Shown here in pieces: positions 15,123 through 22,330 of a stretch of 23,116 nucleotides of DNA. Below the pieces are notes generated by a model. That model was not told the DNA's origin and made no database searches. It worked only from the letters and a program-made list of their open reading frames with translations. A program made the position numbers and the translations under genes. Source of the stretch: a virus; IMG/VR virus record IMGVR_UViG_3300032265_000317, positions 1 to 23,116 of that record; one strand, given 5' to 3'. Numbering within the stretch: position 1 is the first letter of the stretch; each line of letters opens with the position of its first letter.

Positions 15123-15755
15123 ATGAAATTCCTTAGAGAATCCATCGAAACCAGTGATATCAGAATTATCACTGAAGGCATTCAAAAAGACCTATTCATC
15201 GAAGGCATTTTTGCTCAGGCAGAAACGAAGAATAGAAATGGCAGAGTCTATCCACAGAAGATCATGGAATCTGCTGTCAAGACCTATTGCAATGAATACG
15301 TTTCTTCCAATAGAGCACTTGGTGAATTATCTCACCCAGAGAATCGCCCGACAGTTAAACCAGAATTAGCTAGCCACCTTATTACTGAGTTCCGTATGGA
15401 TGGTAATAACGTAATGGGCAAGGCAAAGATTCTCAACACACCACAAGGACAGATCGTCAAGGGTTTGCTCGATGGTGGTGTTAAGTTAGGTGTATCTACT
15501 CGCGGTCTTGGATCAGTTACAGAAAAAGCTGGTTCAACATACGTCGGTGATGACTATACATTAATGGCAGTGGATGTGGTAACTGATCCATCTGGTATTG
15601 ATTGCTGGGTTAACGCAATTAATGAAAGTCAAGATTGGACGATCACTGATGACGGAAGAATCGTCGAAGCGATCAGAAAAGAATTGAATAAGCAGAAACT
15701 AACTGAAGACAAGGCTTTGGCTATGTTCAGCAAGTTTCTACGCGATATCAAATAA
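15123..15755 (+). CDS. gp21: Prohead maturation protease gp21
   Basis: A 210-residue homologue of T4 gp21 (212 residues), the serine protease inside the prohead that trims gp23, removes the scaffold and activates itself. The fold-typical motifs are FIEGIFAQAETKNRNGRVYP (residues 25-44), LGELSHP with H71 as catalytic histidine, GVSTRGLGS with S125 as catalytic serine, and AVDVVTDPSG with D151. N-terminal LRE (4-6) matches the family's own (L/I)-X-E cleavage preference and may be a self-processing site. It follows the 140-residue gene by a single base. The product should be co-assembled with gp22 core before capsid expansion. Confidence 0.95.
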   Translation: MKFLRESIETSDIRIITEGIQKDLFIEGIFAQAETKNRNGRVYPQKIMESAVKTYCNEYVSSNRALGELSHPENRPTVKPELASHLITEFRMDGNNVMGKAKILNTPQGQIVKGLLDGGVKLGVSTRGLGSVTEKAGSTYVGDDYTLMAVDVVTDPSGIDCWVNAINESQDWTITDDGRIVEAIRKELNKQKLTEDKALAMFSKFLRDIK

Positions 15756-15828: not shown

Positions 15829-17004
15829 ATGTCTATTGAACAAAAAATTGCACAACTGATGGAACAGGCTAAACAGCTCGAGTCATCGGATGAAGTTGTT
15901 TCCATTGAAGAAGTTTCACTCGACGAGGCAACTTCTGTTGTTGGTAAAGCAACTAAAACTGGTGCTGATAAAAAGGGTCAGAAACTTGGTGCAATGTCAG
16001 CAGCAGTTGAGGGAGTAAAAACTGAGCACGAGCACAAAGGCGAAAAATATACTGTGCACAGCGTGGTTGACCATGACGGAGATGTACATCATTCGGTCAT
16101 GCATAACGGCAAACAAGTGCACAATCATTTAGTTTCACAAGAGGGAACGCATGGCGATAAACCTTCGCCTTTGCATAAGAAACTAATTGCCGACCATGTT
16201 ACAGCTGCCAAAAAACATTTGGATAAAATGGCTGGTCATATATTCTCTGACGAGGATGACGAGGATGATATGCATGAGTCAGTAACCCAGAAGATTGACC
16301 TTGGGTCGCTTTTCGAAGGTGAAGAGTTCTCGGAAGAATTTAAGTCTAAGGCAGCTGAGTTATTCGAAGCTGCAGTAGAAGCTCGTATCAAGCAAGAAAT
16401 TGCTCAGATCGAAGAAGAAGTTTCACAGCGCGTAGTTACTGAAAGTGCTGAGTTAAAAGAGGGTCTTGTTGATAAAGTTGATGGATATCTCGACTACGTA
16501 GTCGAACAGTGGATGCAAAAGAATGAGCTCGCCCTTGATCGTGGTATTAAAGTCGAAATTTTTGAAAGTTTCGTGAGCGGAATGAAGGATCTTTTTGAAA
16601 CTCATTATATCGACGTTCCAGAAGAAAAGTTTGACCTGATGGAAAGCGTCGACGCAAAAGCAAAAACTCTTGAAGAACAAGTAGATTTTCTAACTGCACA
16701 AAACGTTGAATTACAGCAGAAGTTTAAGTTAGTCGCAAAAGAAAAGCAAATCGAAGAAGCCTGCAAAGAGCTGACCGATTTGGAAGCAGAGCGATTCAAA
16801 CAACTTGCTGAAGAATTGGCGTATGATGATGAAGAATCATTCGGAAAGAAATTAGAACTCGTGAAAGAGAACTATATTTCGAAAGCAAAACAAGTAAAGA
16901 CAGTTGTTGATTCAGTGGTAACTGATTCGCCTGTTGCACTTAATGAAGACAAACAAGTCGATGCTACGATGGCGCGTTATATGCATGCCTTCAAAGCACG
17001 ATAA
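15829..17004 (+). CDS. gp22: Prohead scaffold core protein gp22 with His-rich insertion
   Basis: A 391-residue homologue of the T4 major core protein gp22 (269 residues), which forms the internal scaffold on which gp23 assembles and is then digested by gp21. The region from about residue 158 (LGSLFEGEEFSEEFKSKAAE) is the conserved core, followed by long Glu/Lys-rich helices with coiled-coil potential up to about 350. SLFE and other L-X-E triplets would be gp21 cut sites. Residues about 65-137 hold a His-rich insertion that accounts for much of the extra length; an acidic linker (DEDDEDD) follows at 141-147. AAAGGA is well placed for the start, and a late-promoter motif precedes the gene. Confidence 0.92.
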   Translation: MSIEQKIAQLMEQAKQLESSDEVVSIEEVSLDEATSVVGKATKTGADKKGQKLGAMSAAVEGVKTEHEHKGEKYTVHSVVDHDGDVHHSVMHNGKQVHNHLVSQEGTHGDKPSPLHKKLIADHVTAAKKHLDKMAGHIFSDEDDEDDMHESVTQKIDLGSLFEGEEFSEEFKSKAAELFEAAVEARIKQEIAQIEEEVSQRVVTESAELKEGLVDKVDGYLDYVVEQWMQKNELALDRGIKVEIFESFVSGMKDLFETHYIDVPEEKFDLMESVDAKAKTLEEQVDFLTAQNVELQQKFKLVAKEKQIEEACKELTDLEAERFKQLAEELAYDDEESFGKKLELVKENYISKAKQVKTVVDSVVTDSPVALNEDKQVDATMARYMHAFKAR

Positions 17005-17031: not shown

Positions 17032-18369
17032 ATGGAACAATCTCGTCCTGATCTAGTTAAGAAGTGGGCTCCTATTCTTGAGCACGCTGATCTTCCACAA
17101 ATCAAAGATAACTACCGCAAGGAAGTTACTGCTGTTCTTCTTGAGAACCAAGAACGTTCGCAGCGCGAAGAGCGTCGTGCTCTGTTCGAAGATTCGCCAA
17201 ACGGATCGTCTGTTAGCGGAACATTCATGCCAGACACTGGTGGTGTTGCTAAGTTTGACCCAGTTCTGATTAGCCTGGTTCGCCGTGCTATGCCAGCAAT
17301 GGTCGCTTACGACATGTGCGGTGTTCAGCCAATGACGCAGCCTACAGGTCTGATCTTCGCAATGAAGTCAACTTATGTAACAAGTGCTGGTGTTCGTGGT
17401 GCAGAAGCTCTGTTCAACGAAGCTGATACTGGCTACTCTGGCGTTGCTACTGGTGGTACTGCTGGTACGTCTAACACTGGTTCTGCTCAGTCGACTCTTG
17501 ATGGTGCTACCACTCCGATCACATCGGGTACTGCTTTCCCAACGGGTATTGGCGAAAACCAAACTGGTACTGGTACCGGTACCACCCAGCAGAATAACGG
17601 TGCTGGTTTCAACCAGATGGGATTCACAATCGAAAAGACTTCAGTTACTGCGCAATCGCGTGCTCTGAAGGCTGAGTACTCTGTTGAACTCGCACAGGAC
17701 TTGAAGTCTGTTCATGGTCTTGACGCAGAAGCCGAACTGAGCAACATCCTTTCGCAAGAAATCTTGGCTGAAATTAACCGCGAAGTTATTCGTACGGTTT
17801 ACAACTCAGCTAAAGTTGGTGCTCAAGTTGGTACTGCTACTGCTGGTATTTTCGACCTTGACGTTGACTCGAATGGTCGTTGGTCAGTTGAGAAGTTCAA
17901 GGGTCTGATGTTCCAAATCGAACGCGAAGCAAATGCAATTTACCAAACGACCCGTCGTGGTCGCGGTAACTTCATCGTTTGCTCGGCTGACGTTGCTTCG
18001 GCTCTGGCAATGGCTGGTGTTCTTGACTACGCTCCTGCGCTGTCGACGAACCTGAACGTTGATGAAGCAAGCAACACGTTTGCTGGTGTTCTGAATGGTA
18101 AGTACAAAGTATATGTTGATCCATATGCTGCTAACCAATCGGCTGACCAGTTCTTGCTAGTTGGTTACAAGGGTACATCGGCATTCGACGCTGGTATCTT
18201 CTACTGCCCATACGTTCCGCTGCAACTGTATCGCGCTACAGATCCAGCAACGTTCCAGCCGAAGATCGCTTTCCGTACTCGCTACGGTATTGTCGCTAAT
18301 CCGTTCACGGCTCTTACCGCTGGTAACAACATCTATTTCCGCAAGGTTCGCGTTCAGAACCTGATGTAA
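17032..18369 (+). CDS. gp23: Major capsid protein gp23
   Basis: A 445-residue homologue of the T4 major capsid protein gp23 (521 residues), an HK97-fold shell protein. Conserved parts include the N-terminal arm, MPDTGGVAKFDPVLISLVRR, and near the C-terminus GIFYCPYVPLQLYRATDPAT and FRTRYGIVANPF. The N-terminal propeptide should be cut by gp21 after E53 in ALFEDSP, which fits the (L/I)-X-E rule. Codon use is distinct: arginine is nearly always CGT or CGC and serine often TCG, as expected for a very highly expressed gene. AAAAAGGA precedes the ATG. No gene 24-like vertex protein follows; a strong terminator does. Confidence 0.98.
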   Translation: MEQSRPDLVKKWAPILEHADLPQIKDNYRKEVTAVLLENQERSQREERRALFEDSPNGSSVSGTFMPDTGGVAKFDPVLISLVRRAMPAMVAYDMCGVQPMTQPTGLIFAMKSTYVTSAGVRGAEALFNEADTGYSGVATGGTAGTSNTGSAQSTLDGATTPITSGTAFPTGIGENQTGTGTGTTQQNNGAGFNQMGFTIEKTSVTAQSRALKAEYSVELAQDLKSVHGLDAEAELSNILSQEILAEINREVIRTVYNSAKVGAQVGTATAGIFDLDVDSNGRWSVEKFKGLMFQIEREANAIYQTTRRGRGNFIVCSADVASALAMAGVLDYAPALSTNLNVDEASNTFAGVLNGKYKVYVDPYAANQSADQFLLVGYKGTSAFDAGIFYCPYVPLQLYRATDPATFQPKIAFRTRYGIVANPFTALTAGNNIYFRKVRVQNLM

Positions 18370-18390: not shown

Positions 18391-18414
18391 AAAAGGGAGC
18401 TTCGGCTCCCTTTT
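18391..18414 (+). terminator. Strong terminator after the major capsid gene
   Basis: Perfect 10-bp stem AAAAGGGAGC (18391-18400) with GCTCCCTTTT (18405-18414) around a TTCG tetraloop closed by a C-G pair, the exceptionally stable UUCG loop. The downstream arm supplies the T-run. It would end the scaffold-capsid transcript. Confidence 0.95.
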
Positions 18415-18421
18415 CAATTAT

Positions 18422-18429
18422 CTAAATAA
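18422..18429 (+). promoter_or_regulatory. Putative late promoter (CTAAATAA) before the accessory block
   Basis: Exact CTAAATAA, 30 bases upstream of the ATG at 18452 and 8 bases after the capsid terminator. It would start a separate late transcript for the 477-residue protein, ATPase and following genes. Confidence 0.75.
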
Positions 18430-18451: not shown

Positions 18452-19885
18452 ATGTTATCTTTCAAAACATTCTTATTAGAAAATGAACTCATTATGATGA
18501 ATACGGAGAAGTACACTAATCCTGCTTTACTAAAAAACTATGTTGTCAAAATAAATGCTCATTTTGGTAGTGATACAGTTTCTGTATACTCAAGAGACAA
18601 AAGTTTGAAAAGCATAACAGGAAAAATTACTGGAGGAAAAGAAGCGATTGAATTAGTTATGAAGAATGTGTTCGGGAAGACCACTAAAATAGAACAATTA
18701 TCAGGTGACGTCGCCAAAGCAGTATCAGGAAAATTTGATTCTTTTCTGGTGAAACTTTCAACTGGAGGTGGATTTTATTTTAGATCTAAAATCGGAGAAA
18801 AAGGAGTTTTACACGATAAAGACTTAACTCCTGCAAAATTTCACCTAACTGGAAAAGAGTTAACAAAAGAAAACTTTGATCATTCATTCAATATGGGGGT
18901 TATGGACTCACAATATGACCTTCCCATTAATATGCTAGACTTGATGCAAGAATTATTATCAGCAGTTTCTGTAAAGGGTGACACCATACCTATTACTAAT
19001 ACTGTGAAGGAGTTAATGAAGTCACTAACTTCTACAGAGTTACAGATTCTTGGTAAAAATTTCGGAGAGATTGCGCTGGCCAAATGGTGTTTATACAATA
19101 AACCAAAAGCGAAACATGTTTTCTTTCCACCAGAAGAAAATGCAGCATTGGCTGATTTTCTTGTAACATTGTCTAATAAAGAAACACTAAAGATTTCTGC
19201 TAAATTTGAAAGTGGAGCAAATGCTTCTATTAGTTCAATTATAAAGAAGGGAAGCGTAGCTCCTGCTGACTTTACAGTTGAAGAGAATAAGAAATTCTCT
19301 GCGGTTATGGCAGTCGTCGATCAGCCGATTCTAAAGGGTCTTATTATGGCAGAAGAAATACTAGACACACCAGAATATAAAGCAATAAAGAAGATGTGTA
19401 AAGACGGGATAGTAAACGAAAAGACTATTGGAGATGCTGTTGAGAAAGCATTGATGGAGTCTGGAATATCAAAGGGATCTCCGGCATCATCAATAACGCA
19501 AGATAAGATTTCTAAGTTTAGAAAAATAATGGATCCGTTTTATTCGCAAATAAAAACACCATCACAAGGATTTCCTGAAGACGATTCTTTTAGTAAAATT
19601 GCTGCTGGTAAATTTGCGGACCCAGTTCTTTATGCATTCTCAGTAGCACTTGCTGCGAGATTTAATGCTGATGAAACATATACCAAAATATTAAATAAAG
19701 CGGCACAGGCAATTGAGGCTGAACAGATATACTTAAAGTTTACATCAACTAACATTACAGTAACTAAGAAAAAGTTCGCAGAATCTGAATTCAAATTTGC
19801 TGCTGGTGCTATGGCGCATGATGCAGATAATGTTCGGTTGAAAGTGAAAATGATTAAAAAAATAAACGAAAGTGTTCAAACATAA
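18452..19885 (+). CDS. Unknown protein with capsid-targeting-like N-terminus and possible nuclease-like core
   Basis: A 477-residue protein of unknown function. The N-terminus MLSFKTFLLENE resembles the T4 capsid-targeting sequence of internal proteins (consensus MKTYQEFIAE), ending in an L-X-E gp21 cut site (L8-L9-E10). Residues 200-260 contain E206 in NFGEIALAKW, D235 in LADFLV, and K251 in LKISAKFESG. This order could be a degenerate PD-(D/E)XK nuclease-type core, but no catalytic glutamate precedes the lysine (S249-A250-K251), so the assignment is speculative. The codon use is AT-rich with AGA arginine, in contrast to the capsid gene before it. It has its own terminator-promoter boundary and is followed by the ATPase gene. 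It may be packaged in the head. Confidence 0.72.
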   Translation: MLSFKTFLLENELIMMNTEKYTNPALLKNYVVKINAHFGSDTVSVYSRDKSLKSITGKITGGKEAIELVMKNVFGKTTKIEQLSGDVAKAVSGKFDSFLVKLSTGGGFYFRSKIGEKGVLHDKDLTPAKFHLTGKELTKENFDHSFNMGVMDSQYDLPINMLDLMQELLSAVSVKGDTIPITNTVKELMKSLTSTELQILGKNFGEIALAKWCLYNKPKAKHVFFPPEENAALADFLVTLSNKETLKISAKFESGANASISSIIKKGSVAPADFTVEENKKFSAVMAVVDQPILKGLIMAEEILDTPEYKAIKKMCKDGIVNEKTIGDAVEKALMESGISKGSPASSITQDKISKFRKIMDPFYSQIKTPSQGFPEDDSFSKIAAGKFADPVLYAFSVALAARFNADETYTKILNKAAQAIEAEQIYLKFTSTNITVTKKKFAESEFKFAAGAMAHDADNVRLKVKMIKKINESVQT

Positions 19886-19896
19886 AGAAGGATAAT

Positions 19897-21423
19897 ATGA
19901 CACAGTTAAACGAAGCAATTAGACAAAAAGATTTCGGCAGAGCAACTGGGCTTGTTCTGAAGTATCTCCGTAAGAAACTTGGAAACAAAGTATATCTGTA
20001 TCCAGTACCAGAACGATTTACTTCTGCTGGTGGATCGATGACTGGTATTCGATTCTTCATGGGATCGAATAAATCTATTCGTTTCAACTGGAAATCTACT
20101 ATTGATACTTCGAATGGTCTGTTGTCTTTAGATTATTGGGATGGATCGAAACTTCCACAACCAAATCCAAGTGAGCATATCAAATTCGACGAAGCGCAAT
20201 CTCTGGTAAAAGTATTACCATTTGTTGTTGAGTTCTTGGATGGTAAAGTTGATAATTCGGGTATCTATGTTACTGAAAGTGTATCACCTGAGTTTAATCT
20301 GGTGCTTGATTTTCGTACAGACCTAACCGAAGCAACCTATACATCGGGGGAACTCTCAAAGACTATTTCGAATGTTATCAATGCATTCAAGAGCAATATT
20401 CAAATTGCTGACCAGTATAAGAATGGCGGAAATAAGAAGTATGGTCCGCGCTGGGAACAAGCAATCAAAGAAATTAGAAAACAATATCCAGAATTGTTCA
20501 CCAAACAAGGCGCAAAGATTAACATTGATGCTGCCAATGCTGGAAAGATTGACTCATCGAAGATTCTAGCAGCAATCTCCGGTGGTGATGATGCCGTTGC
20601 ATTCAATATTACCAGCGGCAGCAAGGAAGAACAGATCGTCGATGGCGCTAGTGATGCTGATATCGATCGTATGACTTATGAAGAGCAACTTGATTCGCTC
20701 AAGTCTGGTATGAAGTTGCTTATGAGCAATGCTACGAACTCTATGTGGGTTGGTGGTCGAGGTGGTACTGGTAAGACGCAGACTGTTGAGGATATGCTCC
20801 ATGCAGCTGGTAAGAGCGATGGGGAAGGTTACTTCAAGATTACTGGTTCGGCTACGCCAACTGGTATCTATAGAATTCTTTATACACACCGTAAAGACAT
20901 TATTCTATTCGACGACTCGGACTCAGCTCTGAATGACCAAGAAGGTCGTAATCTGTTCAAGGCAGCAGCCGATACGAAGAAGAACCGTAAGATCTCCTGG
21001 ATGAAGGGTGGTAAGAACTTTGTTGATCCAGCTGACTTCGATGAAGAAAGCGGCGACGAAGATGTTCTGCCACGTTACTTTGACTTCACAGGTAAGATTA
21101 TCTTCATCTCGAATATGCCGCTGGCTAAACTAGATCCAGATGGTGCTCTGCGCACTCGTGGTTTCGTTATGAATGTTGACCCAACCAATGAAGAGATCTA
21201 TGACTTTATGAATAAGATTGTTGATTTTATTCCATTGGATGTTAACTATCCATTGTCTAAAGAATCAAGAATGGAAGTAGTTGATGTATTACGAGCAAGA
21301 AAGATCTCTGAGAAGAGTGCTAACCTTCGCTCACTGGTACGTGGTCTAAACGTGCGCGCTGGTATTGAATCACAGGGTGGGTCAGAAGAAGAATGGCGTC
21401 GTTTCGTTAAGATGTTCGCTTAA
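19897..21423 (+). CDS. AAA+ family ATPase in the late region
   Basis: A 508-residue protein. The first about 260 residues are an unrecognised N-terminal region. The AAA+ core has Walker A GGRGGTGKT (286-294), Walker B DIILFDDSDSA (D339/D340) and a sensor-1-like FISNMP with N406; R419/R421 in GALRTRGF may be a finger or sensor residue. Residues after about 430 are helical and may be the AAA+ lid. The segment GDEDVLPRYFDF is an acidic linker between Walker B and sensor 1. AAGGAT precedes the ATG. It is placed in the late operon, not with replication genes, so it might act on assembly, packaging or virion proteins. It could still be a general remodelling ATPase; the substrate is unknown. Confidence 0.85.
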   Translation: MTQLNEAIRQKDFGRATGLVLKYLRKKLGNKVYLYPVPERFTSAGGSMTGIRFFMGSNKSIRFNWKSTIDTSNGLLSLDYWDGSKLPQPNPSEHIKFDEAQSLVKVLPFVVEFLDGKVDNSGIYVTESVSPEFNLVLDFRTDLTEATYTSGELSKTISNVINAFKSNIQIADQYKNGGNKKYGPRWEQAIKEIRKQYPELFTKQGAKINIDAANAGKIDSSKILAAISGGDDAVAFNITSGSKEEQIVDGASDADIDRMTYEEQLDSLKSGMKLLMSNATNSMWVGGRGGTGKTQTVEDMLHAAGKSDGEGYFKITGSATPTGIYRILYTHRKDIILFDDSDSALNDQEGRNLFKAAADTKKNRKISWMKGGKNFVDPADFDEESGDEDVLPRYFDFTGKIIFISNMPLAKLDPDGALRTRGFVMNVDPTNEEIYDFMNKIVDFIPLDVNYPLSKESRMEVVDVLRARKISEKSANLRSLVRGLNVRAGIESQGGSEEEWRRFVKMFA

Positions 21424-21424
21424 T

Positions 21425-22330
21425 ATGAAAGTAGTACATAAAGATTTACAGGCTCTTGGTATTGACCATGAGTCTGTAAAGAAATACTTAAAATATAGAG
21501 AGGCAGATGCTAAGGTCGGTAATGACCCATATACATCATCTGCATCTGATAAAGCGAACAAGACCAAAGCATTCCGAGCATTACACAAAGATCTAGAAGC
21601 AAAAACCAAGAATGCGATGGTGGCGAGTCAAGCCTTACACAACATTCATGACTATAAAGGAAAAGAAGCGATGTATGAAAGTATGATGTCATTCAAATCT
21701 TTTCTCGAGATCAATGAATTGTCTAATGTCACACTGGCTTCTTATAAAAAGAAAGCAGGAGAACAGGCAACAGCTGCTGATAAGGCAGGTGACTTCAAGA
21801 AAGGCAATAAGCGATTCTCTGGTATTACCAAAGCAACGAAGAAACAATTCGCCAATGCAGTAAAAGAAGATGAAGATCCTTGCTGGGATAATTACAAACA
21901 GCTTGGTATGAAGAAGAAGAATGGAAAGAAAGTTCCTAACTGCGTTCCTGAGTCTGTTGACGAACAGTTTGATGTTATCGAAGAAATGGTAATGTCACTG
22001 GCTGAAGAGCAAAATATTGATCCAGAAATTATCTGGGAAGATTTTGAATCAGTTGATGACGAAGAATTACTAGAATATGCAGTTGACGCCAAGGGATACA
22101 AATCATCAACTGGTGGTTTAACGCAAAAAGGTCGCGATGCTTATAATGCCAAAGGTGGAAACTTGCAAGCACCAGTAACGACTCCACCATCTAAACTGAA
22201 GCCAGGAAGCAAAGCTGCCAATCGCCGTAAGTCTTTCTGTGCGCGTATGAGTGGCATGGAAGGTGCTATGGAAAAACCAAATGGTGAACCTACTCGTAAA
22301 GCACTAGCACTACGTAAATGGAATTGCTAA
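21425..22330 (+). CDS. Mosaic phage protein with internal targeting-like motif and Cys modules
   Basis: A 301-residue protein. The ATG at 21425 lies just behind the ATPase stop and is preferred over the earlier in-frame start at 21365, which would overlap that gene. Residues 1-85 are a helical Lys-rich part. Residues 88-98 (MSFKSFLEINE) resemble a capsid-targeting sequence with an I-N-E cut site; next comes LSNVTLASYKKKAG and KRFSGITKATKK, a helical module common in environmental phage proteins. Residues 151-175 carry CWDNYKQLGMKKKNGKKVPN with C153 and C173. The C-terminus (223-301) has RRKSFCARMSGMEG and ends KALALRKWNC, with C272 and C301. Several such modules occur in different combinations in other phages. 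Internal ATGs at 21671-21686 could give a shorter form. Confidence 0.75.
   Translation: MKVVHKDLQALGIDHESVKKYLKYREADAKVGNDPYTSSASDKANKTKAFRALHKDLEAKTKNAMVASQALHNIHDYKGKEAMYESMMSFKSFLEINELSNVTLASYKKKAGEQATAADKAGDFKKGNKRFSGITKATKKQFANAVKEDEDPCWDNYKQLGMKKKNGKKVPNCVPESVDEQFDVIEEMVMSLAEEQNIDPEIIWEDFESVDDEELLEYAVDAKGYKSSTGGLTQKGRDAYNAKGGNLQAPVTTPPSKLKPGSKAANRRKSFCARMSGMEGAMEKPNGEPTRKALALRKWNC

Follow-up and report, generated by a model that had tools for sequence, protein, structure and literature searches.

A candidate packaged, nuclease-like protein encoded downstream of the major capsid gene of a T4-like phage

The stretch of DNA analysed here (the window) comprises the 23,116 nucleotides of the 23-kb IMG/VR virus record IMGVR_UViG_3300032265_000317 and derives from an uncultured T4-like phage, whose gp23 is nearest to cyanophage gp23 (59%). 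According to homology the genes are arranged in the order gp13, gp14, gp15, gp17, gp18, gp19, gp20, two unknowns, gp21, gp22 and gp23, followed by the gene under study, an AAA+ ATPase gene, a gene encoding a DUF6321 protein and a gp3-like gene (Table 1). An earlier note on this DNA had placed the 477-residue ORF downstream of the major capsid gene and beside an AAA+ ATPase and had numbered E10, E206, D235 and K251 in its product; location, neighbour and numbering were all confirmed. Two further observations concern the surrounding genes. The gp22 scaffold of the window has 391 residues compared with 281-285 in relatives and contains an insert of about 100 residues (approximately 15931-16300), which is His-rich and acidic at its end. 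Inside the DUF6321 ORF, from position 21683, a CTS-like (capsid-targeting-sequence-like) peptide, MMSFKSFLEINE, was found, which may mark the true start or two fused parts.

Table 1. Features at and around the gene for the 477-residue protein.
Feature	Position	Strand	Remarks
gp21-like prohead protease	15123..15755	+	enzyme expected to cut the CTS
gp23 major capsid protein	17032..18369	+	
Intrinsic-terminator-like hairpin	18391..18414	+	AAAAGGGAGC-UUCG-GCUCCCUUUU, after gp23; z -2.7
Late-promoter-like element	18422..18429	+	CTAAATAA, located 30 nt upstream of the ATG
Gene under study, nuclease-like candidate internal protein	18452..19885	+	477 aa, ATG start
CTS-like residues 1-10	18452..18481	+	MLSFKTFLLE; gp21 predicted to cleave behind E10
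Region diverging from L001, a relative of 91% identity	18698..19000	+	codons ~83-183
Nuclease-like core, residues 194-252	19031..19207	+	E206 on a helix, then one strand, a second strand following D235 and a third bearing S249-A-K251
AAA+ ATPase related to T4 NrdC.10	19897..21423	+	same late unit as the gene under study
DUF6321 protein	21425..22330	+	

The 477-residue protein is basic (pI 9.0) and its N-terminus, MLSFKTFLLENE, opens with MLSFKTFLLE|NE, the bar marking the predicted cut. MLSFKTFLLE|N matches MKTYQEFIAE|A of the T4 internal proteins IPII and IPIII (T4 genome) in spacing, in cut site and in the Glu at residue 10. Two patterns were used for comparison: a strict motif, M..[FYL]..[FYLMI][LIVFM].E, and a relaxed gp21-type site, [LIMF]xE[AGSN] within residues 6-34. 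The strict motif occurs in two of the 89 T4 proteins scanned, IPII and IPIII only, and in none of the 84 remaining genes of the family loci that are supported by homology, the DUF6267 genes being set aside; 16 of 18 DUF6267 genes carry it. Within the protein family only 9 of 29 representatives match, which counts against a packaged reading. The relaxed site is present in 24 of these representatives, which are related to one another and hence are not independent observations, compared with 6% of internal windows. No conclusion was drawn from the relaxed site by itself; the strict motif and a comparison with virion mass spectrometry (MS) were used instead. Since the first 14 residues are identical in a homologue of 63% identity with the same synteny and the strict motif is specific, the N-terminus is more than chance. 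The likeness to a T4 capsid-targeting sequence that the earlier note had claimed was borne out at the level of sequence, by the IPII/IPIII spacing and cut site and by the specificity of the strict motif. Past the CTS there is no similarity to the T4 internal proteins or Alt, and as blastp found nothing in T4 ipI-III or alt that matches the mature part, the protein is not filed as an internal protein homologue.

Virion MS from related phages allowed a comparison of the tag with packaging. For the cyanophage S-CREM2, 52 proteins are detected by MS in virions, although the authors consider carry-over into the CsCl preparations possible (PMC10665884). Of the 148 proteins scored against these data, four of the five that carry the strict motif were detected (SAM hydrolase, ORF13, ORF136 and cytidylyltransferase), compared with 23 of the remaining 143 (Fisher p=0.004). 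Inclusion of a kinase with a GTG-start form of the CTS lowers p to 0.0008, the kinase having been added after the list was known. The strict motif sets MS-detected virion enzymes apart from most other S-CREM2 proteins. S-SM1 virions contain the cytidylyltransferase T4-GC190 (PMC3037559); its N-terminus, MKKFSAFLNEA, is the same type of tag as that of the 477-residue protein, and this NMNAT-like enzyme is encoded in one cassette with fold relatives of the latter. The virion SAM hydrolase and cytidylyltransferases share the strict CTS-like N-terminus, and their folds are unrelated to that of the window protein, as are those of the kinase and of a Cas9-like nuclease, both likewise detected in virions by MS, the latter with a similar stretch, LRFASFMAEA, near its start. 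The S-CREM2 ORFs concerned (OR473000; L089/L090) are ORF6, 12, 13, 14, 136 and 154; the virion SAM hydrolase, kinase and cytidylyltransferase start with CTS-like peptides of the internal protein type. No connection of these S-CREM2 and S-SM1 virion enzymes with a CTS was found in the available parts of their papers.

Between gp23 and the start codon lie a strong terminator-like hairpin, which is also present in the related loci L001, L022, L093 and L098, and the element CTAAATAA. The element occurs six times in the window (1.39 expected), among others at about -30 of gp13, gp19 and gp22. The late promoter of cyanophage S-PM2 is NATAAATA (PMC2984593). The gene itself is accessory: it is missing from this junction in L093, L094 and L098, and in close relatives with a 96% identical gp23 the order is gp23, the same terminator, CTAAATAA and the AAA+ gene. 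As these empty-site relatives retain terminator and promoter directly before the AAA+ gene, the claim of an own late promoter had to be narrowed: a late-promoter-like element is present but not private to the gene, being common to it and the AAA+ operon, to which it probably belonged originally. Another relative, the 148-kb G002, encodes a 363-residue family member elsewhere (G002:C1:61176-62267; N-terminus MLSLKQYISE|T) as well as a tagged DUF6267 protein. Compared with L001, DNA identity falls to 74-90% over the divergent codons, while upstream it is about 98% and downstream mostly 90-99%. Presence or absence of the gene combined with local divergence recalls the injected internal proteins that block host restriction.

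Searches with the single sequence yielded two contigs and one weak match in a named phage, C48C1 (E 0.03), the only one obtained by tblastn in named phages; searches with an alignment of these extended the set to 16 and later to 56 loci on viral contigs. Sequence searches of Pfam, PHROGs, PDB and PADLOC gave no match for the window protein, no curated family (Pfam, PHROGs) describes its family, and the family is apparently undescribed. As to cellular relatives, a single 3.1-kb contig was found, which belongs to a Flavobacteriales MAG and is probably phage. Many relatives directly follow gp41 and uvsX. For 10 of 11 relatives located in the replication cluster, the exact T4 late promoter, TATAAATA, precedes the family gene by 34-50 nt, compared with none of 35 neighbouring genes (p=3e-9). 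A protein packaged into the head would require such a switch to late expression amid replication genes. The promoter sequences indicate late transcription of the gene. C48C1 and the Syn9 gp182-type proteins, which occupy related positions, are without the tag, which counts against packaging; between the family and the Syn9 gp182-type proteins encoded at the same locus hhalign detected no homology (probability 0.2%).

The family alignment comprises 36 rows, most of them with about 20% identity to the window protein, and G205, E206, F225, P226, L233, D235, F236, S249, K251 and G255 are invariant. The three residues named in the earlier note are thus part of the family core, with D235 and K251 as catalytic-type Asp and Lys. 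The fold was predicted twice with AlphaFold, each time with another sequence placed first, from an alignment of the window protein and related viral-locus proteins only (the C48C1 row was left out); the models reached pLDDT values of 79.6 and 82.4. The predicted core is alpha-beta-beta-beta, with E206 on a long helix, D235 before the second strand and S249-A-K251 on the third. This helix-strand-strand-strand arrangement is that of PD-(D/E)XK nucleases. Two residues before K251, where (D/E)xK has its acid, there is an invariant Ser, and the fold is for this reason called nuclease-like and not formally filed as PD-(D/E)XK; the proposed core therefore stood in its three residues but not in its (D/E)xK signature. 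Replacement of the acid is familiar from nucleases such as HinP1I (QxK) and Cfr10I (SxK). The window protein places D and K like these enzymes, has an invariant helix Glu as they do and shares SxK with Cfr10I; it differs in long N- and C-terminal additions and in the lack of a significant structural or profile match. E206 on its helix may compensate for the missing acid.

Foldseek searches of the PDB ranked HinP1I (E 0.38) and FokI (E 0.26) first in two runs, with HincII recurrent among the matches. All three lie at E 0.26-0.8 and are only suggestive; neither these searches nor profile searches matched a solved nuclease significantly, and Pfam gave no match. The expected likeness to PD-(D/E)XK nucleases was thus seen in the predicted topology and not in significant matches to solved structures. 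Viral models (BFVD) gave nine strong matches, none of which carries a functional annotation. One of them, S-PM2 T4-GC841 (Q5GQJ7; E 2e-9, prob 1.00), is related to the family weakly by profile and clearly by fold. It shares the predicted fold, the motifs EIL.A, NEALIDY and ISVKS, and a location in a gp41-mazG-DUF6267-cytidylyltransferase cassette; it differs in its length of 586 residues and an N-terminus without CTS, and it is unannotated. On the models a nuclease-like fold is likely, and the combination of models and conserved residues makes catalysis fairly probable.

The neighbouring genes point in a similar direction. AAA+ homologues in L101, L102 and L103 start with the CTS-like sequences MKQFKNFLNEE, MISFKNYLSED and MPLNFRSFLQE, and the AAA+ ATPase may be virion cargo too. 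In most relatives a DUF6267 gene lies directly downstream of the family gene. Its product has a conserved K-x-D-G motif, joined in the majority of copies by EGFV and K motifs, from which we infer a ligase-type covalent nucleotidyltransferase. In DUF6267 (T4-GC 71; e.g., L061:9143-10375) these motifs read KxDGAP, EGFV[AI] and KL[VI][ND]R, a CTS-like N-terminus is found in many phages, and the Pfam entry gives the function as not known; a relation to T4 NrdC.11 was not detectable. Upstream of the family gene in L031 (4584-7728) and L034 (4148-7368) there is a tagged block with a tagged GGAAGHMMHP protein and a 618-residue protein with a CTP_transf_like C-terminal part.

The explanation that we favour, by a modest degree, is that of a late accessory internal head protein, which is packaged, injected and acts on DNA as a divergent PD-(D/E)XK-like nuclease. 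Residues 1-10 would be a T4-type capsid-targeting sequence that brings the protein into the prohead core, where the phage's own gp21 protease would cut them off after E10. The basic remainder of 467 residues would be packed with the DNA and enter the cell alongside it. The protein would be a metal-dependent nuclease with E206, D235 and K251 in its active site and Ser in place of the usual acid. It would act on DNA as infection starts, perhaps together with the AAA+ ATPase of the same late unit; in relatives a possible partner is the ligase-like protein. We infer packaging by the tag, gp21 cleavage, co-injection and metal-dependent DNA action. We regard packaging as likely, judged from the tag in the family, the late promoter at the gene in replication-cluster relatives and the MS detection of tagged proteins in S-CREM2 and S-SM1. 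That the protein acts after injection and not during packaging is somewhat more probable than not, and the evidence is about equally compatible with DNA processing and with an anti-host function.

Precedents exist in T4. Its internal proteins are packaged and injected with the DNA (PMC3012670, PMC12373910), and T4 heads tolerate a packaged nuclease, as staphylococcal nuclease was packed into them by means of the CTS (PMC3012670). IPII and IPIII share with the window protein the N-terminal CTS and the (L/I)-x-E cut at residue 10, and IPI-III are likewise accessory and basic. The characterised T4 internal proteins are small restriction inhibitors, whereas the window protein, with its nuclease-like core, is far larger, which counts against the parallel, and smaller than T4 Alt.

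A packaged protein could instead work in the maturing head, where it would trim, debranch or repair DNA during packaging or protect the ends, injection being incidental. The position of many relatives directly after gp41 and uvsX, the conserved ligase-like DUF6267 neighbour, the AAA+ neighbour in the window and late expression would suit this role, which we nevertheless judge unlikely: accessory presence in close relatives misfits an essential packaging step, yet G002 has a member elsewhere, and the local divergence better suits an arms race. Less probable again is that the protein is packaged but non-catalytic, binding DNA or acting as an inhibitor with a nuclease fold that is no longer active, for instance as a decoy for host restriction enzymes in the manner of IPI-III. 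The replacement of the acid by Ser and the basic pI agree with this reading, and T4 IP1-3 are Type IV restriction inhibitors (PMC12373910), but the invariance of E206, D235, S249, K251 and G255 at about 20% identity argues for a kept active site. That the N-terminus is no CTS and the protein a late non-virion enzyme of DNA metabolism is improbable, for although many family members fit only the relaxed motif and C48C1 has no tag, the strict motif is specific, a T4 late promoter stands at the gene and the tag agrees with virion MS in S-CREM2 and S-SM1.

T4 is the textbook case of head-tagged proteins, and its best-characterised cargo consists of small inhibitors. In the present case the tag is borne by a large, as yet unnamed family that has a nuclease-like core and occurs on many contigs of T4-like phages. 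More tentatively, marine T4-like phages may carry an undescribed virion-borne DNA enzyme kit of SxK nuclease, DUF6267 ligase-like nucleotidyltransferase, AAA+ ATPase and NMNAT-like enzyme, all with tags of the internal protein type and co-injected. If true, this kit would process DNA and host metabolism as infection begins. The strict motif provides a simple and directly testable rule by which virion cargo might be recognised from sequence, and it draws attention to enzymes possibly acting before phage gene expression.
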